From the NCBI RefSeq assembly GCF_001927245.1, contig NZ_MJUX01000007.1:1-64000 (forward strand): DNA of 64,000 nucleotides, written 5' to 3'. This stretch comes from Acuticoccus yangtzensis. GTDB taxonomy: Bacteria > Pseudomonadota > Alphaproteobacteria > Rhizobiales > Amorphaceae. Below, piece after piece: positions 7,316 through 43,496 of the stretch. Numbering within the stretch: position 1 is the stretch's first letter; the number at the start of each line of letters is the position of its first letter. Made by a program: the position numbers and the translations under genes. Under the pieces are notes generated by a model. That model was not told the origin of the DNA. It did not search any database and saw only the letters and a list, made by a program, of their open reading frames with translations.

Positions 7316-7427
7316 GATCATCGCCTTGATCGAACGCTACGCGGGTGGAGGCAGGATCGCCGTCCCTTACGAGTGGCTGAAATGCCACGCTTTGACACAA
7401 ACCGGCCAGCGCGGCCGAGTCAAAACG

Positions 7428-15869: not shown

Positions 15870-16784
15870 TCACGCGGCGGGCGTGGGCACCGCCAGCCGG
15901 CGCAGCGCCACCGTCAGCTCCTCGGCGAACCGCGAGGCGGCCACGGGCAGCGTGCGCCCCAGGAGCTGGCCGAGCAGCAGATGGCCCGGCGCCACGTCCG
16001 ACGCCGGCAGAGGTCGCACGGTCAGCCCCTGCGCCACCGCGCCGGTCAGGCCGATCGGGATCTCGAAGCCGATCGCCCGCTCGTGCGTCACGTAGCGGCG
16101 CATGAACTCGAAGCTGTCCGCCTCCACCACCGGGCGCAGCTTGCGCGACGAACGGCGCAGGCCCAGGTCCAGCAGATGACGCACGCCGAACCGGGCGGAC
16201 GGCACCACGTGCGGCTCGTCCAGACAGTCGCGCAGCCGCAGCGTCGGCCGCGTCGCCAGCGGATGGTCCGACGCCATCACCGCGCAGACCGGTTGCGGCA
16301 CCGCGCACAGGATCTCGAAATCGGCCATGTTCGCCGGCTCGAAGACGATGGCGAGGTCGGCCTTGTAGAGCGTCAACTCCTCCTCCGCCGCCACCCGGTC
16401 ACGCACGTTGACGGTGAAGGACACGCCGGGGAAGCGGGCGCGGAAATCGGCGATGCGGTCGGGCAGATAGAACGGCGTCAGCGCCTGGCTGCAGGCGATC
16501 GCTACGTGACCGCGGCGGATGCCCATCAGATCGTCCACCTGGGTGCGCACCATGGTGAGATCGGCCCGCTGGGCGCGAATGTGCTTCAGGATCAGCTCGC
16601 CCGCCGCGTTGGGCCGCACGCCCTGGGGCAGCCGCTCGAAGATCGGCGTGCCGAACTCTTCTTCAAAAGCCTGCAAACGGCGGTTGAGGGCCGACGACGT
16701 GAGGTTCATCGCCTCCGCTGCCTTGCGGATGGACCCGGCCCGCGCCACCGCCTCGATGAGATCCAACGTCAGCATATGGCGCAT
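15870..16784 (-). CDS. LysR-family regulator (paralogue of the one at 21685)
   Basis: A 304-residue LysR regulator with the N-terminal helix-turn-helix (AGSIRKAAEAMNLTSSALNRR) and a periplasmic-binding-like effector domain (GHVAIACSQALTPFYLPDRI). It is plainly related to the LysR at 21685-22617 across its length, including the unusual 'TSSALNRR' recognition helix and FGVRHLLDL. GGGGGA lies 5 bases before the ATG at 16784; an open frame extending upstream to 16970 has no support. It sits at the left edge of the ureide region and may control it. Confidence 0.88.
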   Translation of the reverse strand: MRHMLTLDLIEAVARAGSIRKAAEAMNLTSSALNRRLQAFEEEFGTPIFERLPQGVRPNAAGELILKHIRAQRADLTMVRTQVDDLMGIRRGHVAIACSQALTPFYLPDRIADFRARFPGVSFTVNVRDRVAAEEELTLYKADLAIVFEPANMADFEILCAVPQPVCAVMASDHPLATRPTLRLRDCLDEPHVVPSARFGVRHLLDLGLRRSSRKLRPVVEADSFEFMRRYVTHERAIGFEIPIGLTGAVAQGLTVRPLPASDVAPGHLLLGQLLGRTLPVAASRFAEELTVALRRLAVPTPAA

Positions 16785-17138
16785 CGCGGTCCCCCATCGC
16801 GCCGCGGGCGGACCGGCGCGCTCCCCTCGCGGCAGCACCCCGGCGGGGCCCGCTGCCCTCACAGCATCACCCTGCACGAAACATAGCAACAGCGTGAAGT
16901 GCCGAGGCGGGGCATCCTCACCCATCGGCGCTGAATTATGTGCGCCGCGAACCCCTTGCCGACTGCGCATCCGCGGCGCCCAGCCCGTTTTTGGACGCCC
17001 AGCCCGGACACCGCCCGCATGAGACGTGCCGAGACACCCGCGCCAACCCCACGCCCCCGCCGTCCGGGCCGCGCCGCATCGGCGGGCGTCCCGGCGCGGG
17101 CGCCCGGCGGGCTTGGCGCGGCCACACGGGCGGGCGGC
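16785..17138. other. Intergenic region with no recognised element
   Basis: These 354 bases separate two minus-strand genes (LysR start at 16784, AtzH-like stop at 17139). They are very GC-rich, with short open frames of atypical low-complexity composition. I see no gene, RNA or strong promoter. The LysR promoter should lie here. Confidence 0.5.
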
Positions 17139-17513
17139 TCAGTTGGTGCTGACGTGCGCCGACACGATGCGCCATCCCTCGGCGCGGCGCTGCCACACCT
17201 GCGTCTGCGATCCCTTCTTGCCGGACACGGTGCGCGTATAATTCGCTGCGGCCACCACCACCTCCGGCGTCACCGCGACGATCTCGACCCGCGTCAACTG
17301 GCGGGCGATGTCGCTCACGTCGCGCCCTTTGCGGAAGGCGATGATCTCGTCGATGCCGTAGAGGCCGCCGTCGGTGGTCAGGCGCATGGTGCGCGGGTCA
17401 TCCGCGAAGGCGCCGATCAGCGCATCCACATCGTTCGTGTTCAGCGCCCGCTCGTAGGCCTCGAAGGCCTCACGCACCTCCGCCTCGACCTCGTTCCGCT
17501 TCGTGTCGTCCAT
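17139..17513 (-). CDS. AtzH/HpxZ-like protein (DUF3225, NTF2-like fold)
   Basis: A 124-residue SnoaL/NTF2-like protein. The pattern EAFEAYERALNTNDVDAL, GIDEIIAFRKGRDV and VWQRRAEGWRIVSAHVS matches the family that includes HpxZ (oxalurate catabolism) and AtzH. AtzH hydrolyses 1,3-dicarboxyurea to allophanate in cyanuric acid degradation. It is 72 bases from, and divergent to, the BiuH-like hydrolase, and near AtzG/AtzE-like genes, which supports a shared pathway. GGAGAG upstream favours the ATG at 17513 over that at 17525. The family is clear; the exact substrate is inferred. Confidence 0.82.
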   Translation of the reverse strand: MDDTKRNEVEAEVREAFEAYERALNTNDVDALIGAFADDPRTMRLTTDGGLYGIDEIIAFRKGRDVSDIARQLTRVEIVAVTPEVVVAAANYTRTVSGKKGSQTQVWQRRAEGWRIVSAHVSTN

Positions 17514-17585
17514 CGCGCTCTCCATCGCAGCGCCCGGCACACTACCGCTATCCGCCTGCACCGCAACGCTGATTGAGGACCCATC

Positions 17586-18269
17586 ATGGCGATGATCACC
17601 GCCGATCCCGCACCGCTCGCCTTCACCCCCGACCGCGCCGCCCTCGTCGTCATCGACATGCAGCGCGATTTCCTGGAGCCCGGCGGCTTCGGCGAGACGC
17701 TGGGCAACGACGTCTCGCTGCTGGCCGCGGCGATCGGCCCCTGTCAGACGGCCCTCGCCGCGGCGCGCGCGGCGGGCATGCTCGTCATCCACACCCGCGA
17801 GGGGCACCGGCCGGACCTGTCCGACGCGCCGCCCGCCAAGCTGGAGCGCGGCGTTCCCTCCGCGCGCATCGGCGATCCGGGGCCGATGGGGCGCATCCTC
17901 ATCCGCGGCGAGCCGGGACACGACATCGTGGATGCGCTCGCCCCCGCTCCCGGCGAGGTGGTGCTGGACAAGCCCGGCAAGGGCGCCTTCCACCAGACCG
18001 ACCTTTCCCAGATTCTCGCCAACCGCGGCATCGACACGCTGTTCGTCGCCGGCGTCACCACCGAGGTGTGCGTCCACACGACGATCCGCGAGGGCAACGA
18101 CCGCGGTTTCCGCTGCGTCGCGCTCGGCGATGCCTGCGCCTCCTACTTTCCCGAGTTCCACCGCGTCGGCCTGGAGATGATCAAGGCGCAGGGCGGCATC
18201 TTCGGCTGGGTCTCGGACGCCGCCTCCTTCGCCGACGCCCTCAAGGGCACCGCCTCCAAAGCCGCCTGA
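17586..18269 (+). CDS. Isochorismatase-like cysteine hydrolase, biuret hydrolase (BiuH)-like
   Basis: A 227-residue cysteine amidohydrolase. The catalytic triad is visible: Asp in VVIDMQRDF, Lys in DKPGKGAF and Cys in [10 protein letters not shown] with the preceding cis-peptide turn. Features shared with BiuH (biuret to allophanate plus ammonia) are [37 protein letters not shown] and [11 protein letters not shown]. Relatives also include N-carbamoylsarcosine and ureidoacrylate hydrolases. GAGGA stands 7 bases before the start. It leads the plus-strand unit hydrolase, NCS2 permease, AtzG-like, AtzE-like. A biuret-type substrate is likely but not proven. Confidence 0.85.
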
Positions 18270-18313
18270 TCCGCCCCTTCACACGTCCGCACCCTCACAT
18301 GGGAGACCCCGTG

Positions 18314-19906
18314 ATGTCCGCGCCTCACTCATCCGCCTCGGCCGCGTCGGCCCCGCGTCTATGGACGCCGGGCGACTGGAACGCCCTCTTCGGGCTCGGC
18401 ACCAACGTCCTCGTCAACCTCCTCGTCATGACGGGGCTCTTGAAGTTCGTCGTCGGCCTGCCGGACGAATTGACCTTCGGGCGCATCCTGCCCGCGGTCG
18501 GCCTCATGCTCTTCGCCGGCAACATGTACTATGCCTGGATGGGCTATAAGCTCGCCCGCAAGGAGGGCCGCGACACGGTCTGCGCGCTCCCGTCCGGCCC
18601 GTCCGTGCCGCACATGTTCATCGTCGTCTTCGTCATCATGATGCCGATCCTCGGCCAGACGGGCGATCCGGTGAAGGCGTGGGAGGCGGGGCTCGCCTGG
18701 GTGTTCATCCAAGGCTTCATCCTCATCGGCGGCGGTTTCGTCGCCCCCTTGATCCGCCGCATCACGCCGCGCGCGGCGCTTCTGGGCACGCTGGCCGGCG
18801 TCTCCATCGCCTTCATCTCCATGAAGCCGGCGACCGAGATCTTCATGACGTCGATCATCGGCCTCACCTGCTTCGGCGTCATCCTGGTGTCCTGGTTCGG
18901 CGGCATCCGCTATCCGAAGAACCTCCCCGCCGGGCTCGTCGCCATCGTGGTGGGCATGGCGATCGCCTGGGGCGCGACGGCGCTCGGCTTCCCCGAGATC
19001 GGCGGCATGTCCGGCTCCGCCCTCGCCGGCGCCTTCGCCAACTTCGGCTTCTCGATCCCGCTGCCCGCGGTGGACCACGTCTTCTCGGGGTTCGAGTTCC
19101 TGGGCTTCATCCTCGTCACCGCGATCCCGTTCGGCGTCTACGACCTCGTGGAGGCGATGGACAACGTGGAGAGCGCGGAGGCGGCGGGCGACGAATATTC
19201 CACCACCGAAGCGCTGGCGGCGGAGGGCACCATCTCGCTCCTCGGCACCTTGATGGGCTCGCCCTTCGCCAACGCGGTCTACATCGGCCATCCGGGATGG
19301 AAGTCGATGGGCGGGCGCATCGGCTACTCCGCCGCGACGGGGCTGTTCGTCCTCGCGATCACCTGGTTCGGCATCCTCGCGGTGTTCCTCAACCTGGTGC
19401 CGGTGGTGGCGATCGCGCCGATCCTCCTCTACATCGGCATGCTGATCGGCGCGCAGGCCTTCCAGACGACGCCGATGGCGCATGCCCCGGCCATCATCCT
19501 CGGCCTCGTCCCGCACCTCGCCGCCTGGGCAAAGACCTTGATCGACGGTGCCTTGGGCGCGGCGGGCACGCCGGTGACGCCGGAGCTCGTCGCCGGGATG
19601 GCGCAGAACGGCGTCCTTTATGAGGGGCTCGCCATCCTCGGCAACGGGGCGATCCTGACAGGGCTGGTGCTGGCGGCCATCGGCGTCTTCATCATCGAGA
19701 AGAAGCTGGAGATCGCGGCGGCCTTTGCCGGGGCGGGTGCGGTTCTGACATTCTTCGGCTTCATGCATGGGGCCGCCGTCGGGGTCGCGGTGTCGCCGAT
19801 GATCGCGCTCGCCTATGCGGTGCTGGCCGGGTTCCTGGTGGGCCTCGCCAAGCTGGAGACGGGCCGCGAGAGCGCGGCCATGGCCGCGCCGGTCGCCGCC
19901 GAATGA
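18314..19906 (+). CDS. NCS2-family (purine/uracil-type) permease
   Basis: A 530-residue polytopic membrane transporter of the nucleobase-cation symporter 2 type, with about 12-14 hydrophobic helices. Seen are MGYKLARKEGRDTVCALPSG early, the signature glutamates in PFGVYDLVEAMDNVESAEAAGD, and the later NAVYIGHPGWK. It would import a nucleobase or a cyclic ureide by cation symport. GGGAGA lies 7 bases before the ATG at 18314. It is 44 bases after the hydrolase and its stop overlaps the AtzG-like start, so all form one operon. No riboswitch fits in the short gap. Confidence 0.87.
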   Translation: MSAPHSSASAASAPRLWTPGDWNALFGLGTNVLVNLLVMTGLLKFVVGLPDELTFGRILPAVGLMLFAGNMYYAWMGYKLARKEGRDTVCALPSGPSVPHMFIVVFVIMMPILGQTGDPVKAWEAGLAWVFIQGFILIGGGFVAPLIRRITPRAALLGTLAGVSIAFISMKPATEIFMTSIIGLTCFGVILVSWFGGIRYPKNLPAGLVAIVVGMAIAWGATALGFPEIGGMSGSALAGAFANFGFSIPLPAVDHVFSGFEFLGFILVTAIPFGVYDLVEAMDNVESAEAAGDEYSTTEALAAEGTISLLGTLMGSPFANAVYIGHPGWKSMGGRIGYSAATGLFVLAITWFGILAVFLNLVPVVAIAPILLYIGMLIGAQAFQTTPMAHAPAIILGLVPHLAAWAKTLIDGALGAAGTPVTPELVAGMAQNGVLYEGLAILGNGAILTGLVLAAIGVFIIEKKLEIAAAFAGAGAVLTFFGFMHGAAVGVAVSPMIALAYAVLAGFLVGLAKLETGRESAAMAAPVAAE

Positions 19907-20256
19907 GCGGCGATCGGTCTCGCATCGGCGCGGCCCATGCCGCGCCGCATGATCGCGCGGCGCGCGCAGCGCCGCAGGGCGGCTCGACGAATGACGGCTC
20001 GGCGCCGGGAGCCTCCGCCGCCGTCCCTCCGGCCTTCGATGCGGCCGGATTCGACGCGGCCGCCTTCGCCGAGCCTGCCGCCTCTGCCGTGGGCCTCACG
20101 CTCGTCCCGGCGCACATGCCGGGCGTGGTGCGCTTCCTCGCCATCGCCGCGGAGATGGCCGCCACAGTGGACGCCGCCCCGCTCGACGAGAGGGCGCTCA
20201 CCCCCGCCCCCGTCTTCCGCCTGCCCGGCCCCTACGACAACGAGCCGTCCCGATGA
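19903..20256 (+). CDS. AtzG/HpxX-like small amidase partner (DUF4089)
   Basis: A 117-residue protein. The first ~45 residues are Ala/Gly-rich and probably disordered. Residues ~48-117 match the AtzG/HpxX pattern: a short helix, then VGLTLVPAHMPGVVRFLAIAA, a second helix with DAAPLDERAL, and an APVFRLP tail. AtzG is the GatC-like subunit that binds and stabilises the amidase AtzE. It overlaps the permease by 4 bases (ATGA) and the amidase by 4 bases, the arrangement expected of a complex made by coupled translation. The long N-terminal tail is unusual for the family. Confidence 0.75.
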   Translation: MSGDRSRIGAAHAAPHDRAARAAPQGGSTNDGSAPGASAAVPPAFDAAGFDAAAFAEPAASAVGLTLVPAHMPGVVRFLAIAAEMAATVDAAPLDERALTPAPVFRLPGPYDNEPSR

Positions 20257-21680
20257 GCCTCTCCCCCTTCGCCTCCGCCGCCGCCATCGCCCGTGCCGTC
20301 AATGCGGGCGAGACCACCGCGCGGGCCGTCACCGAGGCGGCGCTCGGCCACATCGCCGCCACCGATGAAAGCGTGAACGCCTTTTCCGCGGTGACCTCCG
20401 CGCGGGCGCTCGCGGCGGCCGATGCGGTGGACGCGGCGCGCGCGGCCGGGCGGACGGCCCCGCTCGCGGGTGTGCCCTTTGCGGTGAAGAACCTCTTCGA
20501 CCTTGCTGGCCACACCACCGTTGCGGGCGCGAAGATCACCGCGGCCGACGCCCCCGCCCGGCGCGATGCCGACCTCGTCACCGCCATGGAGGCGGCGGGC
20601 GCGGTCTGCGTCGGGGCGCTCCACATGGGCGAGTTCGCCTACGACTTCACCGGCGAGAACGACCATTACGGACCGTGCCGCAACCCGCACGACACCGCGC
20701 GCATGACCGGCGGGTCGTCGTCCGGCTGCGGCGGGGCGACCGCGGCGGGCATGGCACCGATCTCGCTCGGATCCGACACCAACGGGTCGCTGCGCGTCCC
20801 CGCCTCACTGTGCGGCATCTTCAGCCTGAAGCCGACCTATGGGCGCCTATCCCGCGGCGGGACCTACCCTTTCGTGGACAGCCTCGACCATCTCGGCCCC
20901 CTCGCCCGCACGGTGGAGGACCTGGCGCTCGCCTACGATGCGCTGATCACCGCCGACACAGCGCGCGACCACGGCGCGGCGCGGCACCCCGCGGCCCCGG
21001 CCGGCGACCTTTCCGGGCGCGCCCCGCGCGTCGGCATGCTGCGCGGCTGGTTCGAGGCGACCGCGTCCGACGAGGCGAACGAGCGGCGCGACCGCGCGGC
21101 CGCCGCCTTCGGAACACCCGCCGATGTCGAGATCGACGGCGCCGAGGCGGGGCGCGCCGCCGCCTACCTCATCACCAATTCCGAGAGCGCGGCGTTCCAC
21201 CTGCCGCGCCTGCGCACCGAAGCCGCCGCGTTCGACCCCGACACGCGCGACCGTTTCCTGGCCGGGGCGCTGCTGCCCGCGGCCTGGGTCGCACGGGCGC
21301 AGCGGGTGCGCTGGTGGTGGCTCGGCCAGGTGATGGCCGCCTTCGACGCGGCGGACGTCGACGTTCTGATGGTTCCCGCAACGCCCTTCACCGCCCCCGC
21401 CATCGGCCAGAAGACGTTGACGCTGGCGGGCCGCACGGTGCCGCTGCGCCCCAATCTCGGCCTTCTGGCGCAACCCTTCTCGTGCATCGGCCTGCCGGTC
21501 GTCACCGTGCCAGTGTTCGCGCCGGGGGAGATGCCCATCGGCATGCAGATCATCGCCCGGCCCTGGCAGGAGGCCACGGCCTTGCGCGCCGCAGCCCGGC
21601 TGGAGGCGGCGGGCTTTCGCGCTCACGCCCCGGCGCTCGCCGCCGCTACGGCCTCCGCGGCCGTTGCGCCCGCCACCTGA
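20253..21680 (+). CDS. Amidase, AtzE/HpxY-like
   Basis: A 475-residue amidase-signature enzyme. The Ser-cisSer-Lys triad is intact: Lys in GVPFAVKNLFDLAG, and the serines in TGGSSSGCGGATAAG and LGSDTNGSLRVPAS. AtzE deaminates 1-carboxybiuret to 1,3-dicarboxyurea and needs AtzG; HpxY is the analogue in oxalurate use. The AtzG-like gene directly upstream supports this subfamily over GatA or a general amidase. It ends 5 bases before the stop of the convergent LysR gene. Confidence 0.86.
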   Translation: MSLSPFASAAAIARAVNAGETTARAVTEAALGHIAATDESVNAFSAVTSARALAAADAVDAARAAGRTAPLAGVPFAVKNLFDLAGHTTVAGAKITAADAPARRDADLVTAMEAAGAVCVGALHMGEFAYDFTGENDHYGPCRNPHDTARMTGGSSSGCGGATAAGMAPISLGSDTNGSLRVPASLCGIFSLKPTYGRLSRGGTYPFVDSLDHLGPLARTVEDLALAYDALITADTARDHGAARHPAAPAGDLSGRAPRVGMLRGWFEATASDEANERRDRAAAAFGTPADVEIDGAEAGRAAAYLITNSESAAFHLPRLRTEAAAFDPDTRDRFLAGALLPAAWVARAQRVRWWWLGQVMAAFDAADVDVLMVPATPFTAPAIGQKTLTLAGRTVPLRPNLGLLAQPFSCIGLPVVTVPVFAPGEMPIGMQIIARPWQEATALRAAARLEAAGFRAHAPALAAATASAAVAPAT

Positions 21681-21684
21681 GCGA

Positions 21685-22617
21685 TCAACGCGGCGAGGTG
21701 GTGCCTTCGAGAAGGTTCGCCTCCATCGCCGCCAGCGCTGTCGTCAACTGCAGCGCGAACCGCGCGGAGGCGACGGGAAGAACGCGCCGGCGCATCTGGC
21801 CGAGCAGCAGGTGCCCCGCCGCCACGTCGCGCTGGCTGACCGGGCGGATGGCGAGGTCGCCCACATCGTCCGGCTTCAGGCCGATGGGAATCTGGAAGCC
21901 CACCGCCCCTTCCTCGCGCACATAGTGGCGCGCCAGCTCGAAGCTGTCGCACTCCAACACGGGCTTCAGCCCCTCCGACATGCGGTGCGTGGCAAGGTCC
22001 AGAAGATGGCGCACCCCGATCGGCGCCGTCGGCACCACGTGCGGCACGGCGAGGCAATCGCGCAGCCGCACCTCGGGCTTGGCGGCCAGCGGGTGGTCCT
22101 TCGCCATCATCGCGTAGACCGGCTGCGGGATGCTCGCCAGAACCTCGAAATCGACCATGTACATCGGCTCGAAGACCAGGGCGAGGTCGGTGGAGAAGTT
22201 CACCAATTCCCGCTCCGCCGCCGCCCTGTCCCGCACATAGACCGCGAACGACACACCCGGATGCTCCGCCCGGTAGCGGGCGATCTCGCGCGGCAGAAAG
22301 TAGGGTTGCAGCGCCTGGCTGCAGGCGATCGACACGTGGCCGCGCCGGACGCCCGAAAGGTCGGCCACCTGACGCTGCACGCGGTCGAAGTCGGACCGCT
22401 GCATCCGGTAATGCTGCACCAGGAGTTCGCCCGCCGCATTCAGCCTCACCCCGCGCGGAAGCCGCTCGAACACCTGCGCGCCGAACTCGTCCTCGAACCG
22501 CTGGATGCGCCGGTTGAGCGCCGACGAGGTGATGTTGAGGTCGTCCGCCGCTTTGCGGATCGACCCCGCCCGCGCGACGTCCTCGATCAGCTTCAACGTC
22601 TCCAGATGCCGCGCCAT
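21685..22617 (-). CDS. LysR-family regulator (paralogue of the one at 15870)
   Basis: A 310-residue LysR regulator with an N-terminal helix-turn-helix (AGSIRKAADDLNITSSALNRR) and an effector domain (GHVSIACSQALQPYFLPREI). Near-identical blocks (FERLPRGVRLNAAGEL, VPTAPIGVRHLLDL, GHLLLGQ) show recent shared ancestry with 15870-16784. It is divergent from the ABC importer operon, which it probably controls. GGGAGG lies before the ATG at 22617; the open frame beyond to 22683 has no start signal. Confidence 0.88.
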   Translation of the reverse strand: MARHLETLKLIEDVARAGSIRKAADDLNITSSALNRRIQRFEDEFGAQVFERLPRGVRLNAAGELLVQHYRMQRSDFDRVQRQVADLSGVRRGHVSIACSQALQPYFLPREIARYRAEHPGVSFAVYVRDRAAAERELVNFSTDLALVFEPMYMVDFEVLASIPQPVYAMMAKDHPLAAKPEVRLRDCLAVPHVVPTAPIGVRHLLDLATHRMSEGLKPVLECDSFELARHYVREEGAVGFQIPIGLKPDDVGDLAIRPVSQRDVAAGHLLLGQMRRRVLPVASARFALQLTTALAAMEANLLEGTTSPR

Positions 22618-22646
22618 CCCCCGCCTCCCGTGCCACGATCCGACCG

Positions 22647-22699
22647 CTGCATTCAATGAAGCGGAACAGTGAAAAACTAGCAATGGATTGCAGCGGAAC
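22647..22699. promoter_or_regulatory. Likely LysR binding region between lysR and the ABC operon
   Basis: An imperfect inverted repeat, GCTGCATTCAATG ... CAATGGATTGCAGC, encloses two copies of AGCGGAAC (22660-22667 and 22692-22699). It lies in the 153-base divergent gap, which is AT-richer than its surroundings. The placement suits a LysR autoregulatory and activation site; this is inferred from pattern only. Confidence 0.35.
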
Positions 22700-22770
22700 T
22701 TTCAGGCAGCCTCACTTCACACCACCCGACACGTCCGACCCACCGAAACATTCATCCGAGGAGCCGCGCG

Positions 22771-24381
22771 ATGATCTCGAGACGTTCCATCCTGAAAGGC
22801 GCCGGTGCCGGCCTTGCCGTCACGTCGCTTCCGTTCGCTTCGGTCCTGAACGCAAAGGCCGCATCGGGCGACGTGCTGGTCGCCGTGCACGGCGCCACCA
22901 TCAACTCGCTCGACCTGCACCGCACCGGCACCAACCGGCCGAGCTATCAGGTCGCGGTCAACTGCTACGACCGCCTCGTCTCCTTCGGCATCAAGACGCT
23001 GGAGGACGGCTCGCTCTCCTACGACTATGCGACGATCCAGCCCGATATCGCGAAATCCTGGCAGGTGTCCGACGACGGCACGGTCCTGACCTTCACCCTG
23101 CGCGACGACGTGACGTTCCAGGACGGCACCCCCGTGACGGCCGAGGACGTGAAGTGGTCCTTCGATCGCGCGGTGACGGTCGGCGGCTTCCCCACGGTGC
23201 AGATGAAGGCCGGCGGGCTGGAGCGGCCGGACCAGTTCGAGGCGGTGGACGCCACCACCTTCGTCATCACCCTCGACAAGCCGTCCAAGCTGGCGCTGCC
23301 GGACCTTGCGGTGCCGGTGCCGTTCATCCTCAACTCCAAGGTGGCCAAGGCGAACGCCACCGAGGCGGACCCGTGGGCGATGGAGTACGTCCACAAGAAC
23401 ACCATCGGCTCGGGCGCCTTCAAGGTGATCCGCTGGGACCAGGGCCAGCAGCTCGTCTATGAGCGCAATGACAATTGGCACGGTGAGCTTCCGGGCGTGA
23501 AGCGCCTCATCCTGCGCGATGTGCCGAGCCCGGCGACGCGCCGCGCCCTGATCGAGCGCGGCGACGTTCAGCTTTCCTTCGACATCCCCAACAAGGATGC
23601 CAAGGAGCTCGCCGACGCGGGCGTCACCGTCTATTCCACGCCGATCGAGAACGCGATCCAGGTGGTCGGCCTCAACACCAACTTCGAGCCCTTCACCGAC
23701 CCCGACGTGCGCAAGGCGATCGCCTACGCCATCCCCTACGAGGAGATCTTCCAGACCGCCGCCTACGGGCGCGGCAACAAGATGTGGGGCGGCCCCGAGA
23801 CCGCGACGGACCCCGTGTGGCCGCAACCCTCGCCCTACTTCACCGATCTCGACAAGGCACGCGAGCACCTCGCCAAGTCCGCCTACGCTGACGGGTTCGA
23901 CGTGCCCTTCTCCATCGACCTCGACCAGAGCGACTGGATGGAGCCGACCGCGATCCTGATCATCGAGGCGCTCGCCAAGATCGGCATCACCTCCACCCTG
24001 GAGAAGATCCCCGGCGCCAACTGGCGCACCGCCTCGCTGGTGGAAAAGCGCCTGCCGCTGCACCTGGAGAACTTCGGCGGCTGGCTGAACTACCCGGACT
24101 ATTACTTCTTCTGGGCCTACCAGGACGGGCACCTCTTCAACTCGTCCAACTACCGCAACGACGAGATGGAAGCCCTGGTCGACAACGCGCTGCACATGGA
24201 GACCGACAATCCGGAGTGGGCGCCCGCGATCATGCGCATGATCGAGATTGCCTACGAGGATCTGCCGCGCATCCCGCTGTGGCAGCCGGCGCTCAACGTC
24301 GCCTCCAACGGTGCGGACGGTTACGCCTACTGGTTCCACCGCCAGCTCGACGCCCGCACCCTCGGCCCGGCGAGCTCGTGA
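22771..24381 (+). CDS. ABC transporter substrate-binding protein, family 5, Tat-exported
   Basis: A 536-residue periplasmic solute-binding protein of the DppA/OppA/NikA type. The N-terminus carries a twin-arginine signal (SRRSILKG, then a weakly hydrophobic stretch ending near ASVLNAKA). The mature part shows AKSWQVSDDGTVLTFTLRDDV and FQDGTPVTAEDVKWSFDRAV, typical of the family. Members bind peptides, nickel chelates, opines or amide-like solutes. GAGGAG lies 7 bases upstream. It heads the operon 22771-29999, ending in an allophanate hydrolase, so the ligand may be a ureide or N-rich compound. Confidence 0.92.
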   Translation: MISRRSILKGAGAGLAVTSLPFASVLNAKAASGDVLVAVHGATINSLDLHRTGTNRPSYQVAVNCYDRLVSFGIKTLEDGSLSYDYATIQPDIAKSWQVSDDGTVLTFTLRDDVTFQDGTPVTAEDVKWSFDRAVTVGGFPTVQMKAGGLERPDQFEAVDATTFVITLDKPSKLALPDLAVPVPFILNSKVAKANATEADPWAMEYVHKNTIGSGAFKVIRWDQGQQLVYERNDNWHGELPGVKRLILRDVPSPATRRALIERGDVQLSFDIPNKDAKELADAGVTVYSTPIENAIQVVGLNTNFEPFTDPDVRKAIAYAIPYEEIFQTAAYGRGNKMWGGPETATDPVWPQPSPYFTDLDKAREHLAKSAYADGFDVPFSIDLDQSDWMEPTAILIIEALAKIGITSTLEKIPGANWRTASLVEKRLPLHLENFGGWLNYPDYYFFWAYQDGHLFNSSNYRNDEMEALVDNALHMETDNPEWAPAIMRMIEIAYEDLPRIPLWQPALNVASNGADGYAYWFHRQLDARTLGPASS

Positions 24382-24382
24382 G

Positions 24383-25405
24383 ATGGAGCGGCTGAAACCC
24401 ATCCTGACGCGGATCGCCCAGGCGATCCCCGTGGTCGTCGGCGTGGTGGTCATCAGCTTCGTGCTAACCCGCGCTCTGCCGGGCGACCCTGCGGTCTTCT
24501 TCGCCGGGGCCGCCGCGGATGCGGCGTCCATCGAACAGGTGCGCAGCGAGCTGGGTCTCGATCAGCCGCTCCCCGTCCAGTTCCTGTACTATGTGCAGGA
24601 CCTCGCTTCGGGCGATCTCGGCAACTCGGTGTCGACGGGTCAGCCCGTCGCCACCGACCTCGCCCGGCGCCTGCCCGCCTCGCTGGAACTCACGCTGGCG
24701 GCGCTGCTGCTGTCCTGCAGCATCGCCGTGCCGCTCGGCGTCCTGGCGGCGACGCGGCCCGGCTCGTGGGTCGACCACGTCTGCCGCGTGCTGGTGACGA
24801 CAGGTGTGTCGATGCCGACCTTCTTTACCGGCATCCTCCTCATCTACGTCTTCTATTATCTCCTCGGCTGGGCCCCCTCGCCGCTCGGCCGGCTCGACTT
24901 CATGTACATCGAGCCGGACCGCGTGACCGGCTTCTTCCTGATCGACGCCGCCTTGGTGGGCGATTGGGAGACCTGGCTCGCCGCGCTGAAACAGTTGGCG
25001 CTGCCGGCGATCACCCTCGCCCTCTTCACCATGGCCCCCATCGCGCGAATGACGCGTGCGGCAATGCTGGCGGCACTGTCGTCGGACTTCATCCGCACCG
25101 CCCGGGCGGCGGGGCTGACGCGGCGCAAGATCCTCTACGGCTATGCGCTACGTAACGCTCTGCTGCCGGTCGTCACCACGCTCGGCATGGTCTTCTCCTT
25201 CACGCTCGGCGCCAACGTCTTGGTGGAGAAGGTGTTCGCCTGGCCCGGCATCGGCTCCTACGCGGTCGAGGCGCTGGTGGCGTCCGACTATGCCGCCGTG
25301 CAGGGCTTCGTGCTGGCCATGGCGCTGTTGTTCGTCGCCCTCAACCTCGTGATCGACATCGCCTACGCCGCGATCGATCCGCGCATCGGGTTCGAAAGCC
25401 AATGA
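24383..25405 (+). CDS. ABC transporter permease, DppB type
   Basis: A 340-residue inner-membrane permease. It has an N-terminal helix (IPVVVGVVVISFVLTRALPGDPA), then the binding-protein-dependent transport domain with about six helices. The EAA loop for ATPase contact is near FIRTARAAGLTRRKILYGYA. The ATG at 24383 comes one base after the binding-protein stop. The longer frame from 24248 overlaps that gene. It pairs with the DppC-type permease, overlapping it by 4 bases. Confidence 0.93.
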   Translation: MERLKPILTRIAQAIPVVVGVVVISFVLTRALPGDPAVFFAGAAADAASIEQVRSELGLDQPLPVQFLYYVQDLASGDLGNSVSTGQPVATDLARRLPASLELTLAALLLSCSIAVPLGVLAATRPGSWVDHVCRVLVTTGVSMPTFFTGILLIYVFYYLLGWAPSPLGRLDFMYIEPDRVTGFFLIDAALVGDWETWLAALKQLALPAITLALFTMAPIARMTRAAMLAALSSDFIRTARAAGLTRRKILYGYALRNALLPVVTTLGMVFSFTLGANVLVEKVFAWPGIGSYAVEALVASDYAAVQGFVLAMALLFVALNLVIDIAYAAIDPRIGFESQ

Positions 25406-26280
25406 GCACCGCAGCCGCCGCCCCCGCCGCGCCGCGCCAGTCGACGCTCGGCCACATCGCCTACGTCCTGAAGGACAACCCGGTGACGATGCTGGCCTTC
25501 GCGATGTTCGCGGTGATCATCCTCACCGCCTTTATCGGCCCGCTGATCGCGCCTTACGACCCGCTCGCCTCGAACGCCGCGCGCGCACTGGAGGCACCGT
25601 CCTGGGATCACTGGTTCGGCACCGACAATCTCGGCCGCGACGTGTTCAGCCGCGTCCTCGTCGCCACCCGGCTCGACCTTACGATCTCGGTCGCCGCCGT
25701 CGCCCTCTCCTTCATCGCCGGGTCCGTTCTGGGCGCCGCCGCGGGCTACTGGGGCGGATGGCTGGATGCGGCCCTGTCGCGCATCCTCGACACCATCATG
25801 GCCTTCCCGCTCTTCGTCCTCGCCATGGGCATCGTGGCCGCGATGGGCAACACGATCGAGAACATCATCTACGCCACCGCCGTCATCAACCTGCCCTTCT
25901 ATGCGCGGCTGGTGCGGGCCGAGGTGAACATCCGCCGGAATGCCGGCTTTGCGCAGGCGGCCAAGCTGTCCGGCAATTCCGACGTGCGGGTGCTGGCGCT
26001 GCACATCTTCCCCAACGCGCTGCCGCCGATGATGGTGCAGATCTCGCTCAATCTCGGCTGGGCGATCCTCAACGCGGCGGGGCTCTCCTTCATCGGCCTC
26101 GGCGTGCGCCCGCCGACGCCCGAATGGGGCATCATGGTCGCCGAGGGCGCCAACTTCATCGTCTCCGGCGAATGGTGGCTGGCCTTCTTCCCCGGCATGG
26201 CCCTCGTCCTCGCCGTCTTCACCTTCAACCTCCTCGGCGACGGTCTGCGCGACATGGTCGACCCGCGGAGGCGCACGTGA
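25402..26280 (+). CDS. ABC transporter permease, DppC type
   Basis: A 292-residue inner-membrane permease with the characteristic N-terminal segment (PVTMLAFAMFAVIILTAFIGPLIAPYDP). It also has the extracytoplasmic marker WFGTDNLGRDVFSRV and an EAA loop (RNAGFAQAAKLSGNSDVRVL). It starts inside the stop of the previous permease gene (ATGA). The next gene of the same transporter follows only after a 280-base hairpin-rich gap. Confidence 0.94.
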   Translation: MSTAAAAPAAPRQSTLGHIAYVLKDNPVTMLAFAMFAVIILTAFIGPLIAPYDPLASNAARALEAPSWDHWFGTDNLGRDVFSRVLVATRLDLTISVAAVALSFIAGSVLGAAAGYWGGWLDAALSRILDTIMAFPLFVLAMGIVAAMGNTIENIIYATAVINLPFYARLVRAEVNIRRNAGFAQAAKLSGNSDVRVLALHIFPNALPPMMVQISLNLGWAILNAAGLSFIGLGVRPPTPEWGIMVAEGANFIVSGEWWLAFFPGMALVLAVFTFNLLGDGLRDMVDPRRRT

Positions 26281-26560
26281 GAATGCGGTCGGCGCTCTGC
26301 GCCGGCTCTCGTGGCGCTGGTCGCGGCTGGCGCCGCGACGGGCGAGGGTGTTCCCCCTCGCGCTCCCCCGGTTCGCCACCCGGCAGGGGTTGGGGTCAGA
26401 CGACCGCTGCGCGGTCCTCCGCCACCAACCCCGCGATCCAGCCTGTTCCGGGCTCCGACCGCGTCAAGGGTGAAGGCTTCGCCCGCCGCTGCGCGGCGCC
26501 CTTGACCCGGCCGGATCCCTCGAGCGCCCCCCTCCTCACCAGCATCAGGAGCGCGTTTCC
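26281..26560. repeat. Hairpin-rich palindromic element inside the ABC operon
   Basis: The 280 bases between dppC-type and ATPase genes hold several dyads. The first is GCGAGGG/CCCTCGC (26342-26361). The second is an 8-bp outer stem GGGGTTGG/CCAACCCC (26386-26393, 26425-26432) around the inner hairpin GACCGC-TGC-GCGGTC (26402-26416). The third is an 8-bp outer stem GTCAAGGG/CCCTTGAC (26463-26470, 26499-26506) around GAAGGCTTC and CGCCGC-TGC-GCGGCG (26484-26498). The last two modules share the core CCGCTGCGCGG. It looks like a non-coding interspersed palindromic element; it may affect mRNA stability or reduce downstream expression. No gene is evident. Confidence 0.55.
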
Positions 26561-28192
26561 ATGCTGACGATCAAGGACCTCAACGTCGCCTTCCGGACCC
26601 GGCGCGGCATCGTGGATGCCGTGAAGGGCATCTCGCTGGAGCTCGGCACCGGCGAGACGCTCGGCATCGTCGGCGAGTCGGGCTCGGGCAAATCCGTCAC
26701 CTCCTACGCGTTGATGCGGATTTTGGACGCGGGCGGCACCATCAAGGCCGCCGACGTCACCTATTCGGGCATCGACCTCGCCAAGGCGACCGAGCGGCAG
26801 ATGGGCGACATTCGGGGCCGGGAGATCTCGATGATCTTCCAGAACCCGCGCGCCGCGCTGAACCCGATCCGCAAGGTCGGCCACCAGATCGAGGACGTTC
26901 TGCGCCGCCACAACCGCGCCACCCGGTCCGACGCCAAGGCCAAAGCGATCGAGGCCATGGAGGCGGTGAAGATCCGCGACGCCGCCAGCCGCTACGAGGC
27001 CTACCCGTTCGAATTGTCGGGCGGCATGTGCCAGCGCATCGTCATCGCCATCGCCCTCGCCTGCGATCCGCGCCTGTTGATCGCCGACGAGCCCACGACG
27101 GGCCTCGACATCACCACCCAGAAGGCGGTGATGGACCTCGTCGCCGAGCTGATCCGCGACCGCGGCATGAGCGCCATCGTCATCACCCACGACCTCGGCC
27201 TCGCGGCGCAATATTGCGACCGCATCGCGGTGATGAAGGACGGAGTGATCGTCGAGACCGGCCCCTCGGCGGAGGTGTTCGGCGCGCCCAAGCATGCCTA
27301 TACGCAGCGCCTTGTGGACGCGACGCCGCGCCTTGGCGCCACCACCCGCAGCCTGCTGCCGGCCGAGGCGCGCACGCCCGAGCCGCTGCACCGCCCGTCC
27401 GACACGCCGCTTCTGGAGGTGAAGAGCCTGGTGAAGACCTTCGCCGGCAAGTCAGGCCCGGTGCAGGCGGTGAAGGGTATCTCCTTCATGGTGCGCGAGG
27501 GGGAGACGGTCGGCCTCGTCGGCGAATCCGGCTGCGGCAAGTCCACCACGTCATCCATGGTGGTGCGGCTGATGGATCCGACGTCGGGTCAGATCCTGTT
27601 CGCGGGCGAGGACCTCGCCAAGGCGCCCGCCGCCGGGTTCGCCAAGGATCCGCGGCGGTCCAAGATCCAGATGGTATTTCAGGACGCCACCGACAGCCTG
27701 AACCCGCGCCACACCGCCGCCCGCGCAATCGAGGAACCGCTGCGCCAGATGACGCGGGATGGCGGCAAGGCCCGGCGCGAGAGGGTGCGCGACCTCGCCC
27801 ACCTCGTCGGCCTGCCTCAACACCTCCTCGATCGCTTCCCGCACCAGCTTTCCGGCGGGCAGAAGGCGCGCGTCGGCATCGCCCGCGCCATCGCCGTGGA
27901 CCCGCGCTTCCTCATCCTGGACGAACCCACCGCCGCGCTCGACGTGTCGATCCAGGCGGTCGTCCTCAACCTTCTCGTCGACCTCAGAAGCCGCCTCAAC
28001 ATGAGCTATCTCTTCGTCAGCCACGACCTCAACGTCGTGCGCCTGCTGTGCGACCACGTGGTGGTGATGCAGAACGGCGCCATCGTGGAATCGGGTCCCG
28101 TCGCCACGGTGATGGACGCGCCCACCAATCCCTACACCGCCTCCCTGATCGACGCCGCGCCGCAGCCGCCGGTGCGCCAGCTTGCGGCCTGA
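26561..28192 (+). CDS. ABC transporter ATP-binding protein, fused DppD-DppF type
   Basis: A 543-residue protein with two ATPase domains. The first (about 1-260) has Walker A GESGSGKS, signature LSGGM and Walker B LLIADEP. The second (about 285-535) has GESGCGKST, LSGGQK and LILDEP. The oligopeptide-type C-terminal segments are present in both. The fusion replaces the usual separate D and F subunits and powers the two permeases upstream. AGGAG stands 9 bases before the ATG. Confidence 0.94.
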   Translation: MLTIKDLNVAFRTRRGIVDAVKGISLELGTGETLGIVGESGSGKSVTSYALMRILDAGGTIKAADVTYSGIDLAKATERQMGDIRGREISMIFQNPRAALNPIRKVGHQIEDVLRRHNRATRSDAKAKAIEAMEAVKIRDAASRYEAYPFELSGGMCQRIVIAIALACDPRLLIADEPTTGLDITTQKAVMDLVAELIRDRGMSAIVITHDLGLAAQYCDRIAVMKDGVIVETGPSAEVFGAPKHAYTQRLVDATPRLGATTRSLLPAEARTPEPLHRPSDTPLLEVKSLVKTFAGKSGPVQAVKGISFMVREGETVGLVGESGCGKSTTSSMVVRLMDPTSGQILFAGEDLAKAPAAGFAKDPRRSKIQMVFQDATDSLNPRHTAARAIEEPLRQMTRDGGKARRERVRDLAHLVGLPQHLLDRFPHQLSGGQKARVGIARAIAVDPRFLILDEPTAALDVSIQAVVLNLLVDLRSRLNMSYLFVSHDLNVVRLLCDHVVVMQNGAIVESGPVATVMDAPTNPYTASLIDAAPQPPVRQLAA

Positions 28193-28196
28193 CCTC

Positions 28197-29999
28197 ATGA
28201 CGCTTTCCGACATCCCCTTCACGCTGTCCGGCATCCGCGCGGCCTATGCCGCCGGTGCCACCCCCGCGGGCGTGATCGCCGAGGTGTACCGGCGCATCGA
28301 CGCGGTGGGCGATCCCGGCATCTTCCTGCATCTGCCGCCGCTCACCGAGGCGCTGGCCGCCGCCGAGGCGATCGGCCCGGACGACGGCCGCCCGCTCTGG
28401 GGCATCCCCTTCGCCGTCAAGGACAACATCGACGTGGCCGGGATGCCGACCACGTCCGCCTGCCCCGCCGTCAGCCGCATGGCGGAGGCGGACGCCTTCG
28501 TGGTGGCGCGGCTGAAGGCGGCCGGGGCCATAGTCGTCGGCAAGACCAATCTCGACCAGTTCGCCACCGGGCTCGTCGGCGTCAGAACGCCCCACGCGGC
28601 GCCGAAGAACAGCGTCGACCCCGCCATCGTGCCCGGCGGATCCTCCTCCGGCTCGGCCGTGGCGGTGGGGCACGCGATCGTGCCCTTCTCCCTCGGCACC
28701 GATACGGCGGGCTCCGGCCGCGTGCCGGCCGCGCTCAACAACATCGTCGGGCTGAAGCCGTCCTTGGGCGCGCTGTCGGCGGGGGGCATGATGCCGGCCT
28801 GCCGCACCATCGACACCATTTCCATCTTCGCGCTGACGGTGGCGGACGCGCATACCGTTTTCCGCGCCGCCGCCGCCTTCGACCCGGCCGACGCCTATTC
28901 GCGCCCGGTCGCCACGCCGGAGCCCGCCGCGCCTCCCGTCCCGCGCATCGGCATCCCTGATGCTGCGAGCATCGAGTTCTTCGGCGACGACGTGCAGGCA
29001 GAGAATTTTGCCGCCACCGTGGCGAGCCTCGAGGCGGAGGGGGCGGTCCTCGTCCCCTTCGACCTCACGCCGTTCACGCAGATCGCCGAGATGCTGTATT
29101 ATGGCGCGTTCGTGGCCGAGCGGCACACGGTGCTGGAACCGCTCCTGGCCACGCAGCCGGATGCGGTGCATCCCGTCACCCGCAAGGTGGTGGAGAAGGC
29201 GCTCCGCTTCACCGCCACGGACGCTTTCCGCGACATCTACCGCCTCGCCGAGCTGAAGCGGGCGGTCGAGCCCGTGCTGGCGTCCGTCGACGCGCTGTGC
29301 GTGCCGACGATCCCGACCTTCTACACGGTCGCGGACCTCCAGGCCGACCCGATCGGCCCGAATTCGCGGCTCGGCACCTACACCAATTTCGTCAACCTCA
29401 TCGACATGTGCGGCATCGCCGTGCCGTCGCTGCCCCGGACCGACGGGCGGCCGGGTAGCGTCACCTTCCTCGCCCCGCATGGGCGCGACGCTCTGGTGGC
29501 CGGTCTCGCCGCCCTGGTGGAGCAGTTCGGGCGCCGCACTTTGGGGGCCACCGCGCACCCCGTACCGCCGCCGGTGGCCGCAGCGCCCCCCGCCGCCTCC
29601 GCCGGTGAGATCGAGATCGCCGTGTGTGGCGCGCACATGTCGGGCATGGCGCTCAACGGCGAGCTGACGTCGCGCGGCGGGCGGTTCCTGCGTGCGGTCG
29701 AAACTGTGCGCGAATATGCCCTCTTCGCGCTCCCCGGCGGGCCGCCGATGCGACCGGGCATGGTGCGCATCGGGCCGAACGGCGGTGCGATCGCGGTGGA
29801 AGTGTGGGCGCTGCCTCTGGCCGAGGTCGGCTCATTCCTCGACGGCATCCCGGCTCCGCTCGGCCTCGGCACCACCCGCCTTGCCGACGGCACCACACCG
29901 AAGGGCTTCGTGTGCGAGGCGGTCGCCACCGCCAGCGCGCAGGATGTGACGTCCTACGGGAGTTGGCGGGCCTTCACCGCGGCCCGCCTCGCGAGCTGA
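28197..29999 (+). CDS. atzF: Allophanate hydrolase, AtzF-like
   Basis: A 600-residue two-domain enzyme. The amidase-signature half (1-~450) has Lys in IPFAVKDNIDVAG and serines in PGGSSSGSAVAVG and LGTDTAGSGRVPA. The C-terminal half (~465-600) is the allophanate-specific domain, with VCGAHMSGMALNGEL, YALFALPGGPPMRPG and DGTTPKGFVCEA. AtzF deaminates allophanate to N-carboxycarbamate, which decays to ammonia and CO2. Both length and domain order match AtzF rather than a plain amidase. It starts 4 bases after the ATPase stop with no clear ribosome site, so it is probably coupled. It completes the pathway begun by the BiuH- and AtzE-like enzymes. Confidence 0.87.
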   Translation: MTLSDIPFTLSGIRAAYAAGATPAGVIAEVYRRIDAVGDPGIFLHLPPLTEALAAAEAIGPDDGRPLWGIPFAVKDNIDVAGMPTTSACPAVSRMAEADAFVVARLKAAGAIVVGKTNLDQFATGLVGVRTPHAAPKNSVDPAIVPGGSSSGSAVAVGHAIVPFSLGTDTAGSGRVPAALNNIVGLKPSLGALSAGGMMPACRTIDTISIFALTVADAHTVFRAAAAFDPADAYSRPVATPEPAAPPVPRIGIPDAASIEFFGDDVQAENFAATVASLEAEGAVLVPFDLTPFTQIAEMLYYGAFVAERHTVLEPLLATQPDAVHPVTRKVVEKALRFTATDAFRDIYRLAELKRAVEPVLASVDALCVPTIPTFYTVADLQADPIGPNSRLGTYTNFVNLIDMCGIAVPSLPRTDGRPGSVTFLAPHGRDALVAGLAALVEQFGRRTLGATAHPVPPPVAAAPPAASAGEIEIAVCGAHMSGMALNGELTSRGGRFLRAVETVREYALFALPGGPPMRPGMVRIGPNGGAIAVEVWALPLAEVGSFLDGIPAPLGLGTTRLADGTTPKGFVCEAVATASAQDVTSYGSWRAFTAARLAS

Positions 30000-33100: not shown

Positions 33101-33229
33101 GTGAAGGCCGATCGCCCCGCCGGCGATGGCGCCGATCGCCAGGACGACGAAGATGGCCGTCAGCTTGCGCCTGAGGCTGGAGGTGGTGCGTTGCAACGCC
33201 ACGGGAATGGGCGGGGGAGCAGACAGCAT
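30116..33229 (-). CDS. Membrane diguanylate cyclase/phosphodiesterase (HAMP-PAS-GGDEF-EAL)
   Basis: A 1037-residue cyclic-di-GMP enzyme. TM1 is near residues 20-42. A helical periplasmic sensor region of about 300 residues is followed by TM2 (LILVGLTLVVYLVAAAVIGYVVA). Then come a HAMP linker, a PAS-like segment, a GGDEF domain and an EAL domain. The GGDEF motif is intact (RLGGDEFAIV) with an RxxD inhibitory site five residues before it (RPTD). The EAL motif (FEALLRWRHP) and DDFGTGYSSL are also intact, so both activities are possible. The ATG at 33229 is 7 bases after the stop of a small membrane protein gene. The ribosome site is weak, suggesting coupling. Confidence 0.9.
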   Translation of the reverse strand: MLSAPPPIPVALQRTTSSLRRKLTAIFVVLAIGAIAGGAIGLHSVSRVANSVTVFTDVTTPMLSDTLSLLEISRRLRATATDAGADGVVVVAAADTIERLHREADERISNLERLSEQANLGLPIAETRASERGFATALRKMLLAHFRQVEAERAIGELRGQIEDVVEQIRTDVFVLHEQIELQMNTARLAVVDALNDPALEVDELRDRSHPLFAWLISLQSKISHLEHVVGEAGDAVADAARSGGDIDMERHEVQEAWFEARDLANSMRAELRAVPEIGSTATFDSHFATFGRLALSEGGLFAALEDLENARAELAAGDLAAEQIRLNYFDLLEKVREGVISLNQEARRTSHSVISQALILVGLTLVVYLVAAAVIGYVVASRISGPIGRLTQHATRISLSGDLSRMDDASIVTRLDEIGALARAFNSMLAELAYARRTILEQSEAEIQLQHDRLKAALSSMSHGLIMLDNNKEVVIANERMAELWSADQSLFAPGTSLRTILESCAARGLIDSSEASINSMVASADLRYPTYFNVDLSNGRVISISHKPTTDGGSISVHEDVTERKAQEARIAFMALHDMLTELPNRVAFREGLEKALSRAARGHSISVICFDLDHFKAVNDTLGHPVGDALLKLVAGRVRSCLRPTDMLARLGGDEFAIVQLDLGQPQSASSLAERLIAEVSRPYEIDSHKVVIGASVGIAIAPDDGLDPDEILRCADMALYRSKERGRGTHSFFEPDMNDRMQERRKLELDLRGALAAGQFELFYQPLVKAESGSIGGFEALLRWRHPERGLVAPADFIPMVEEIGVIGQVGRWALREACLAAATWPADLTISVNLSPVQFKSGLLVDDVRDALEEAQITPSRLELEITEQILLDDAGATVHTLQRLRDLGVRIAMDDFGTGYSSLGYLRLFPFDKIKIDRSFMRDFESAQSVAIVRAVAGLANTLGIATVAEGIETEEQLVRAQAEGCQEVQGYLFSRPIVGSEVAALLARTSGATRAGVPGDAAQGLADIAAEEAEAGRVTRVRSAQSSAAR

Positions 33230-33236
33230 GGCGCGC

Positions 33237-33458
33237 TCAGTCGATGCGGCGCGACGCGAGGAGCGCGCTGCGCGCGTGAACGGCGCGGCGGGCCGCCTCC
33301 TCCTGACGGCACAGTGCGGCGGCGAGGAGCCACGCCGGCCCCGCTGCTGCGGTTGCGACAAGGCCGGCCAGCTCAGGAATCGCGTGGCCGTCGCCGTAAA
33401 GGACGCTGCCCAAAAGCAGCGCACCAACCACAGACAGGACGATCGACGGAGGTGTCAT
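33237..33458 (-). CDS. Small two-helix membrane protein upstream of the GGDEF-EAL gene
   Basis: A 73-residue frame, beginning MTPPSIVLSVVGALLLG, with two hydrophobic segments (about 5-20 and 30-48) and a basic, Arg-rich C-terminus. It ends 7 bases before the GGDEF-EAL start and has a modest GAGA upstream, so it would be translated first in a two-gene unit. I recognise no family. It could be an accessory or sensor peptide for the cyclase, or a chance frame in GC-rich DNA. The frame continues open upstream to 33692 with non-hydrophobic, unconvincing sequence. Confidence 0.45.
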   Translation of the reverse strand: MTPPSIVLSVVGALLLGSVLYGDGHAIPELAGLVATAAAGPAWLLAAALCRQEEAARRAVHARSALLASRRID

Positions 33459-43489: not shown

Positions 43490-43496
43490 GCGATCG

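Follow-up and report, generated by a model that had tools for sequence, protein, structure and literature searches.

Sequence-based prediction of a triuret catabolic gene cluster joining TrtA to AtzG, AtzE, AtzH, and AtzF in Acuticoccus yangtzensis

Introduction

Triuret is a chain-like relative of urea that is present in fertilizer, and its published catabolic route consists of TrtA, TrtB, BiuH, and AtzF (PMC7948467, PMC12625717). TrtA converts triuret to ammonia and 1-carboxybiuret, as established by 13C nuclear magnetic resonance, and carboxybiuret decays to biuret with a half-life of ∼20 minutes (PMC7948467). 1-Carboxybiuret is also the substrate of AtzEG; the proposed role of AtzH is to decarboxylate the AtzEG product, 1,3-dicarboxyurea, and so yield allophanate, on which AtzF acts (PMC6219798). 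Clusters of atzG, atzE, and atzH greatly outnumber cases of cyanuric acid degradation and are probably the older of the two (PMC6219798). The abstract of PMC12625717 names trtA, biuH, and atzH together, while its text passages give trtA, trtB, biuH, and atzF. Both the action of AtzEG on the TrtA product and the use of a decarboxylase or a deaminase by cyanuric acid degraders are noted in PMC7948467, so that the chemistry of a TrtA-AtzGE route was foreseeable. Here we examine a gene cluster that brings these enzymes together, at positions 17139 to 29999 of a 64,000-nucleotide stretch of DNA from Acuticoccus yangtzensis (assembly GCF_001927245.1, contig NZ_MJUX01000007.1, positions 1 to 64,000 of the forward strand), referred to below as the window.

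We consider it likely that this is a triuret catabolic cluster operating via 1-carboxybiuret, with no need for biuret as an intermediate. A preliminary description of the window had proposed a single route leading to allophanate, ammonia, and CO2, a view that the present analysis supports. It had also proposed a cyclic or N-acylated urea as the substrate, with the first enzyme missing, or biuret as the entry point. These proposals found no support: the hydrolase is TrtA-type rather than BiuH and fills the first step, and its product is the AtzEG substrate (PMC7948467, PMC6219798).

Results

Cluster organization

The analysis bore out the clustering of AtzH-, AtzG-, AtzE-, and AtzF-like genes with a hydrolase, a permease, and a peptide-type ATP-binding cassette (ABC) importer at 17139 to 29999. 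The features are as follows.

15870..16970, minus strand: LysR regulator 1, open frame (PF00126, PF03466)
17139..17513, minus strand: AtzH-like protein, 124 amino acids (aa), probable 1,3-dicarboxyurea decarboxylase (PF11533, 111 bits; alignment with 6bjt)
17586..18269, plus strand: TrtA-type triuret hydrolase, 227 aa (PF00857, 152 bits; 6xix, 278 bits; residues; tree)
18314..19906 (alternative start 18299), plus strand: polytopic permease without a Pfam or NCBIfam model, candidate triuret transporter
19903..20256, plus strand: AtzG-like small subunit, 117 aa, domain at residues 59 to 105 (PF13318, 40 bits)
20253..21680, plus strand: AtzE, 475 aa, probable 1-carboxybiuret amidohydrolase (NF006631, 586 bits; TIGR02715, 564 bits; 6c62, 436 bits)
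21685..22683, minus strand: LysR regulator 2, open frame, divergent from the ABC genes (PF00126, PF03466)
22771..24381, plus strand: ABC importer solute-binding protein, family 5 (PF00496, 265 bits)
24383..25405, plus strand: ABC permease 1 (PF00528, 146 bits)
25402..26280, plus strand: ABC permease 2 (PF00528, PF12911)
26561..28192, plus strand: ABC ATPase with two ABC domains (PF00005, two stretches)
28197..29999 (frame open from 28182), plus strand: AtzF allophanate hydrolase with C-terminal domain (TIGR02713, 719 bits; PF01425, PF21986)

The gene order is thus AtzH on the minus strand, TrtA-permease-AtzG-AtzE on the plus strand, LysR on the minus strand, and the ABC importer and AtzF on the plus strand. 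The permease and AtzG frames share 4 bases at stop and start, and the AtzE start overlaps the AtzG stop, which suggests that permease, AtzG, and AtzE share one transcript. In AtzG, AtzE, the four ABC genes, and AtzF, third-position G+C is 0.86 to 0.93. LysR 1 and LysR 2 share 62% identity over 304 positions (blastp), and the layout is therefore one of two modules: AtzH and a LysR facing TrtA-permease-AtzG-AtzE, and a LysR facing the ABC genes and AtzF. Contrary to the earlier description, the LysR genes do not bracket the set: LysR 1 lies to the left of AtzH, and LysR 2 sits inside the set, separating AtzE from the ABC importer. The true start of LysR 1 is probably further in, because its helix-turn-helix begins near residue 69 of the open frame. 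Three stretches were scanned for an operator common to both LysR proteins. No convincing common word emerged; upstream of LysR 1, a single imperfect T-N11-A arm pair was seen.

Identity of the hydrolase

The hydrolase fits the isochorismatase-like fold family, with catalytic Asp24, Lys129, and Cys162 present. Its best solved match is Herbaspirillum TrtA (6xix, 278 bits), followed by Rhizobium BiuH (6azo, 228 bits) and Rhodococcus BiuH (6xjm, 218 bits), with 61% identity to 6xix versus 50% to 6azo over the aligned portions shown. Catalytic and binding residues, and six positions that discriminate TrtA from BiuH, are named in PMC7948467. In that numbering, the window protein is TrtA-type at all 13 active-site and specificity residues checked, including F35, N41, A134, E160, Y187, and I205 plus Q202 (7/7, as in 6xix), and is BiuH-type at 0/6 discriminating positions. 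The full 13-residue TrtA set is carried by 80/80 close TrtA relatives, and the full BiuH set by six of eight BiuH rows compared (one deviates at one site, and one is cut off). The curated BiuH equivalog model NF050097 gives the window protein 261.7 bits against a cut-off of 370.

The tree of TrtA and BiuH was a quick one without bootstrap, of 114 rows taken from 24 of 80 TrtA loci and from a sample of the window's class. In it, 62 TrtA rows, with 6xix and the window protein, form a 64-row set together with two divergent rows (Shimodaira-Hasegawa-like approximate likelihood ratio test [SH-aLRT], 99), and 33 BiuH rows form a separate set (SH-aLRT, 87) with the window hydrolase outside. Guanylurea hydrolase and HpxY are not represented in the trees, no sequence of either having been identified. 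The window hydrolase is of the triuret hydrolase type, with triuret hydrolysis as its predicted activity; a BiuH identity was set aside on the basis of residues, model score, and tree, and the earlier label “BiuH-like” was replaced accordingly. The first-enzyme gap is closed because the hydrolase is now recognized as TrtA-type, whose known product, 1-carboxybiuret, is the AtzEG substrate. As a separate observation, TrtA-clade proteins at L252 (4891) and L254 (5304) are TrtA-type at 3 and 2 of the six sites, respectively, and possibly act on new substrates.

AtzG, AtzE, AtzH, and AtzF

AtzE exceeds the cut-off of its NCBIfam model (NF006631, 586 versus 461 bits) and adjoins the AtzG-like subunit (PF13318), AtzF exceeds that of TIGR02713 (719 versus 511 bits) and has both amidase and AH_C (PF21986) domains, and AtzG and AtzH pass their Pfam cut-offs. 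The catalytic residues described earlier proved intact: AtzE and AtzF carry the Lys/Ser/Ser amidase motifs, and the hydrolase has its Asp-Lys-Cys triad. Catalytic Tyr22 and Arg46 of AtzH (6bjt) correspond to Tyr20 and Arg44 in the window protein. NF006631-type AtzE-like proteins also occur in clusters with other suggested roles (PMC6219798). AtzE/AtzG is probably a 1-carboxybiuret hydrolase, and AtzH is probably a 1,3-dicarboxyurea decarboxylase.

Predicted pathway

The chain from triuret to ammonia is complete on paper without ring opening, since the TrtA product feeds AtzEG and all of AtzE, AtzF, AtzG, and AtzH pass cut-offs. Every reaction in the cluster is assigned by analogy with homologues, and the predicted steps are as follows. 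(i) Triuret may enter by the TrtA-adjacent permease, the ABC importer, or both. (ii) TrtA would hydrolyze a terminal amide of triuret to give NH3 and 1-carboxybiuret, as is known for Herbaspirillum TrtA. (iii) By analogy with the Pseudomonas ADP homologues, AtzG-AtzE would convert 1-carboxybiuret to NH3 and 1,3-dicarboxyurea, AtzH would decarboxylate the latter to allophanate, and AtzF would complete nitrogen release from allophanate as NH3. (iv) The LysR paralogues, of which each divergent module has one, probably coinduce the set.

Searches were extended to the whole genome, which comprises 29 contigs and is 96% complete. It has seven isochorismatase-family matches, TrtA included, and no BiuH, the others being ≤36% identical to BiuH. 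The earlier statement that AtzD and barbiturase are absent was upheld by a whole-genome search for AtzD/TrzD/barbiturase (PF09663), which gave 0 matches here and positive results in three control genomes. There is one AtzE at an E value of 1e-125 or better, and the sole match to the AtzF C-terminal domain (PF21986) lies in this cluster. Urease is present, so that urea formed by side decay could still be used, whereas biuret would go to waste.

Codistribution of TrtA, AtzE, and BiuH

Codistribution was determined in 385 genomes of the window's class, drawn evenly. TrtA was called at ≥5 of the six discriminating sites, with at most seven candidates scored per genome, and AtzE at an E value of at most 1e-125 (31 of 32 lie above the curated cut-off). 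TrtA was found in 36 genomes and in that of A. yangtzensis itself (37 in all), AtzE in 32, and both in 20. AtzE is therefore present in 20/37 TrtA genomes versus 12/348 others (Fisher P = 1e-14, own genome left out). By family codes, 12/21 TrtA families also have AtzE, and eight AtzE families lack TrtA. AtzE is present in 9/10 TrtA genomes without BiuH versus 10/26 with BiuH, or 8/9 versus 10/26 (P = 0.018) with the own genome left out; a genome in which BiuH is split over two frames and AtzE is present (G397) was counted in neither group. In the single TrtA genome with neither BiuH nor AtzE (G236), trtA is accompanied by genes for FdrA, DUF1116, and carbamate kinase.

In a second set of 49 TrtA genomes, from the 80-locus TrtA collection, AtzE is above the cut-off in 41, the AtzF C-terminal domain is present in 45, and BiuH at ≥63% identity, judged by identity rather than by residues, is present in 16 and partial in G022. 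The eight genomes without AtzE above the cut-off comprise three with BiuH or part of it (G022, which also has AtzE fragments, G031, and G043), two with FdrA-type genes (G046 and G048), and three metagenome bins with none of BiuH, AtzE fragments, or FdrA-type genes (G012, G015, and G030). Across 398 genomes sampled from the phylum, with TrtA taken as a best match of ≥55% identity rather than by residues, AtzE is present in 22/35 genomes with TrtA versus 14/363 without. Within the window's order, where many genomes are close kin, AtzE is present in 15/15 newly drawn genomes with TrtA at ≥66% identity and in 0/7 with TrtA at 55 to 58%, and 17/17 AtzE genomes (own genome apart) have TrtA.

Gene orders and TrtA branches

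TrtA and AtzE lie ≤10 kb apart in 9/20 class-sample genomes having both, compared to a chance expectation of ∼0.1 estimated for random placement in a 4- to 5-Mb genome. AtzE is present on 13/80 TrtA loci, in several gene orders: TrtA-permease-AtzG-AtzE, TrtA-AtzE-AtzH, AtzF-AtzE-AtzH-TrtA, AtzE-TrtA-AtzH-AtzF, and convergent. The left-hand order of the window is repeated on a Paroceanicella profunda plasmid. Outside the class, two genomes (G448 and G654) have AtzE ≤6 kb from a TrtA-like gene with a second family member beside it.

Within the TrtA clade, 19/20 rows with BiuH nearby group with 6xix (SH-aLRT, 99), a second set holds the five rows labeled for FdrA-type genes (98), and a third set of 30 rows includes the window protein (95) and has AtzE nearby in 18. 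Exceptions are L020, L021, and L026 of the third set, which carry BiuH on the same locus, L230 and L240 of the 6xix set, which have AtzE nearby, and L222 to L224, which stand apart. The match between TrtA subclades and downstream gene context is good, if not strict.

At L089 (11995 to 17553), L217, L219, L220, L221, L072, and L078, on an Escherichia coli plasmid and in several genomes, TrtA has FdrA, DUF1116, and in most cases carbamate kinase genes as neighbors. These genes may represent a third fate of the TrtA product. A small cupin gene, probably encoding the TrtB decarboxylase, lies directly 3′ of trtA in BiuH-linked clusters (L090, 12662 to 13015; L091, 12659 to 13006). At L171 (14869 to 15923), AtzD in two frames, through frameshift or sequencing error, lies beside BiuH within a TrtA-AtzH-AtzE-AtzF cluster. 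TrtA-permease pairs closely resembling alphaproteobacterial ones occur in bins named Fibrobacteria and Cellvibrio (L062 and L077), suggesting transfer or misbinning, and an Enterobacter cloacae plasmid (L293) carries allophanate hydrolase, ABC, and formamidase genes and two TrtA/BiuH-family genes annotated as RutB.

In the AtzE tree (quick, no bootstrap), the window protein belongs to a 14-row set (SH-aLRT, 100) in which 12 others have trtA nearby. AtzE of strain ADP is placed elsewhere, next to a set mixing AtzD-linked and TrtA-linked rows. This topology would be compatible with recruitment of AtzGEH from triuret clusters and does not show it.

Transporters

The permease gave no Pfam match at E values up to 10 and no NCBIfam match at E values up to 1, and its alignment gave 0 matches against PDB profiles. 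Its earlier assignment to NCS2 is not supported by sequence, because it matches no Pfam or NCBIfam family. A likeness in fold is suggested by a structure model (21 sequences) of moderate confidence (predicted local distance difference test, 74; predicted template modeling score, 0.67), whose best matches are BicA, SVCT1, SLC26Dg, and UraA (query template modeling scores, 0.44 to 0.52); the permease may therefore resemble the UraA/SVCT/SLC26 fold. A homologue lies ≤1.5 kb downstream of trtA in 63/80 loci and adjoins trtA on 9/36 class-sample loci, none of which has BMP-type ABC genes.

The ABC importer is complete, as described previously, with a binding protein, two permeases, and an ATPase with two ABC domains of the peptide/nickel type; solved relatives of the binding protein are distant only. 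Among 71 AtzE loci, 17 have AtzF and the binding protein with no trtA nearby, and six have trtA and the binding protein. The ABC importer associates more with AtzE and AtzF than with trtA, and the permease is the preferred candidate for triuret transport.

Other features of the window

The right neighbor of AtzF is a large HAMP-PAS-GGDEF-EAL protein (30116 to 33427, minus strand). A 2,307-aa open frame at 398 to 7321 (minus strand) contains seven apolipoprotein-like stretches, and a 2,002-aa open frame with no Pfam match runs on the opposite strand. Another uptake and catabolism cluster, with genes for LysR, ABC permease and ATPase, CoA-transferase III, and HpcH/HpaI lyase, lies at 41226 to 48575, and an MlrC/M81 metallopeptidase-family gene lies near tripartite ATP-independent periplasmic (TRAP) transporter genes (DctP and DctM) at 50527 to 55907.

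Discussion

Several findings weigh against a triuret role for the whole cluster. First, assayed TrtA proteins all lie outside the subclade of the window TrtA, and specificity sites are altered in two rows of the TrtA clade. Second, the window AtzE is a long branch, with a score of 586 bits versus mostly 620 to 750 for the AtzE proteins found. Third, kinship between genomes inflates the co-occurrence P values, and one of the nine TrtA genomes with AtzE and without BiuH (G151) has a distant AtzE (45% identity) on another contig, with FdrA-type genes beside trtA. Fourth, AtzE occurs without TrtA in 12/32 AtzE genomes of the class sample and 14/36 of the phylum sample. Outside the class, TrtA is present in three of 14 AtzE genomes, 11 of the 14 belonging to one family (f200), and the TrtA-AtzE link there is weak. 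AtzE outside the class probably has a different use, as Enterobacteriaceae are reported to have atzGEH clusters without atzF (PMC6219798). Finally, the AtzGEH-AtzF group is far from trtA (or trtA-permease) in many relatives, and AtzGEH may thus have a substrate of its own.

This last point, together with the separate LysR of each module and the AtzE genomes that lack TrtA, would fit two unrelated functions that happen to adjoin: TrtA and the permease for triuret, and the ABC importer, AtzGEH, and AtzF for a different ureide, with a first enzyme that lies elsewhere or is unrecognized. We regard this as improbable, since permease, AtzG, and AtzE overlap and are codirectional with TrtA, AtzH faces TrtA, and the LysR genes are paralogous; TrtA moreover requires a downstream route, and the genome has no BiuH. 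It is very unlikely that the hydrolase is BiuH and feeds AtzF directly with allophanate, with AtzGEH separate: the hydrolase belongs to the same protein family, is 50% identical to BiuH, and is accompanied by AtzF, but the discriminating positions, the BiuH model score, and the tree all oppose this. Least probable of all is an oxalurate (HpxXYZ-like) or cyanuric acid pathway, to which AtzH's weak match to the HpxZ model (NF033625) and the identity of AtzGEHF with the cyanuric acid genes of strain ADP would point, given that this match (108.3 bits) falls below the cut-off of 135, that AtzF has, to our knowledge, no role in oxalurate use, and that AtzD and barbiturase were not found in the genome.

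If triuret catabolism via 1-carboxybiuret is the function of this cluster, triuret users have a route needing no biuret hydrolase and a conserved candidate transporter whose family has no model. The pairing with TrtA also offers a concrete substrate for a good part of the orphan atzG-atzE-atzH clusters. A broader scheme can be drawn, which we put forward tentatively and with more doubt than confidence: triuret catabolism may have at least three branches that roughly follow TrtA subclade (BiuH and cupin via biuret, AtzGE and AtzH directly, and FdrA-DUF1116-carbamate kinase, which could save ATP), the triuret role of AtzGEH may predate the joining of AtzD, and the trtA-adjacent permease may be the first triuret transporter. 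The FdrA-linked branch would predict a possible energy-saving variant.

The individual steps are already known or proposed for homologues, and what appears new is the joining of TrtA to AtzGEH; no paper on this pairing was found in one open literature library, whose coverage leaves out two relevant papers. With the triuret pathway of Herbaspirillum sp. BH-1 and Rhizobium leguminosarum (PMC7948467), the window shares TrtA with the same 13 residues, AtzF as the last enzyme, and the overall chemistry. In those organisms, however, carboxybiuret gives biuret, which BiuH converts to allophanate, whereas A. yangtzensis has no BiuH and has AtzGE and AtzH instead; its permease and its ABC importer are likewise distinct from the BMP-type ABC genes seen in BiuH-linked clusters. 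With atzDGEHF of Pseudomonas sp. ADP (PMC6219798), it shares AtzG, AtzE, AtzH, AtzF, and the assumed steps from 1-carboxybiuret. Unlike strain ADP, it lacks AtzD, and 1-carboxybiuret would come from a linear substrate through TrtA. The proteobacterial atzG-atzE-atzH clusters (PMC6219798) likewise have AtzGEH with AtzF and ABC transporter genes; their substrate is left open by that paper, in which the word triuret has 0 occurrences, whereas the gene set of the window names a specific first enzyme.

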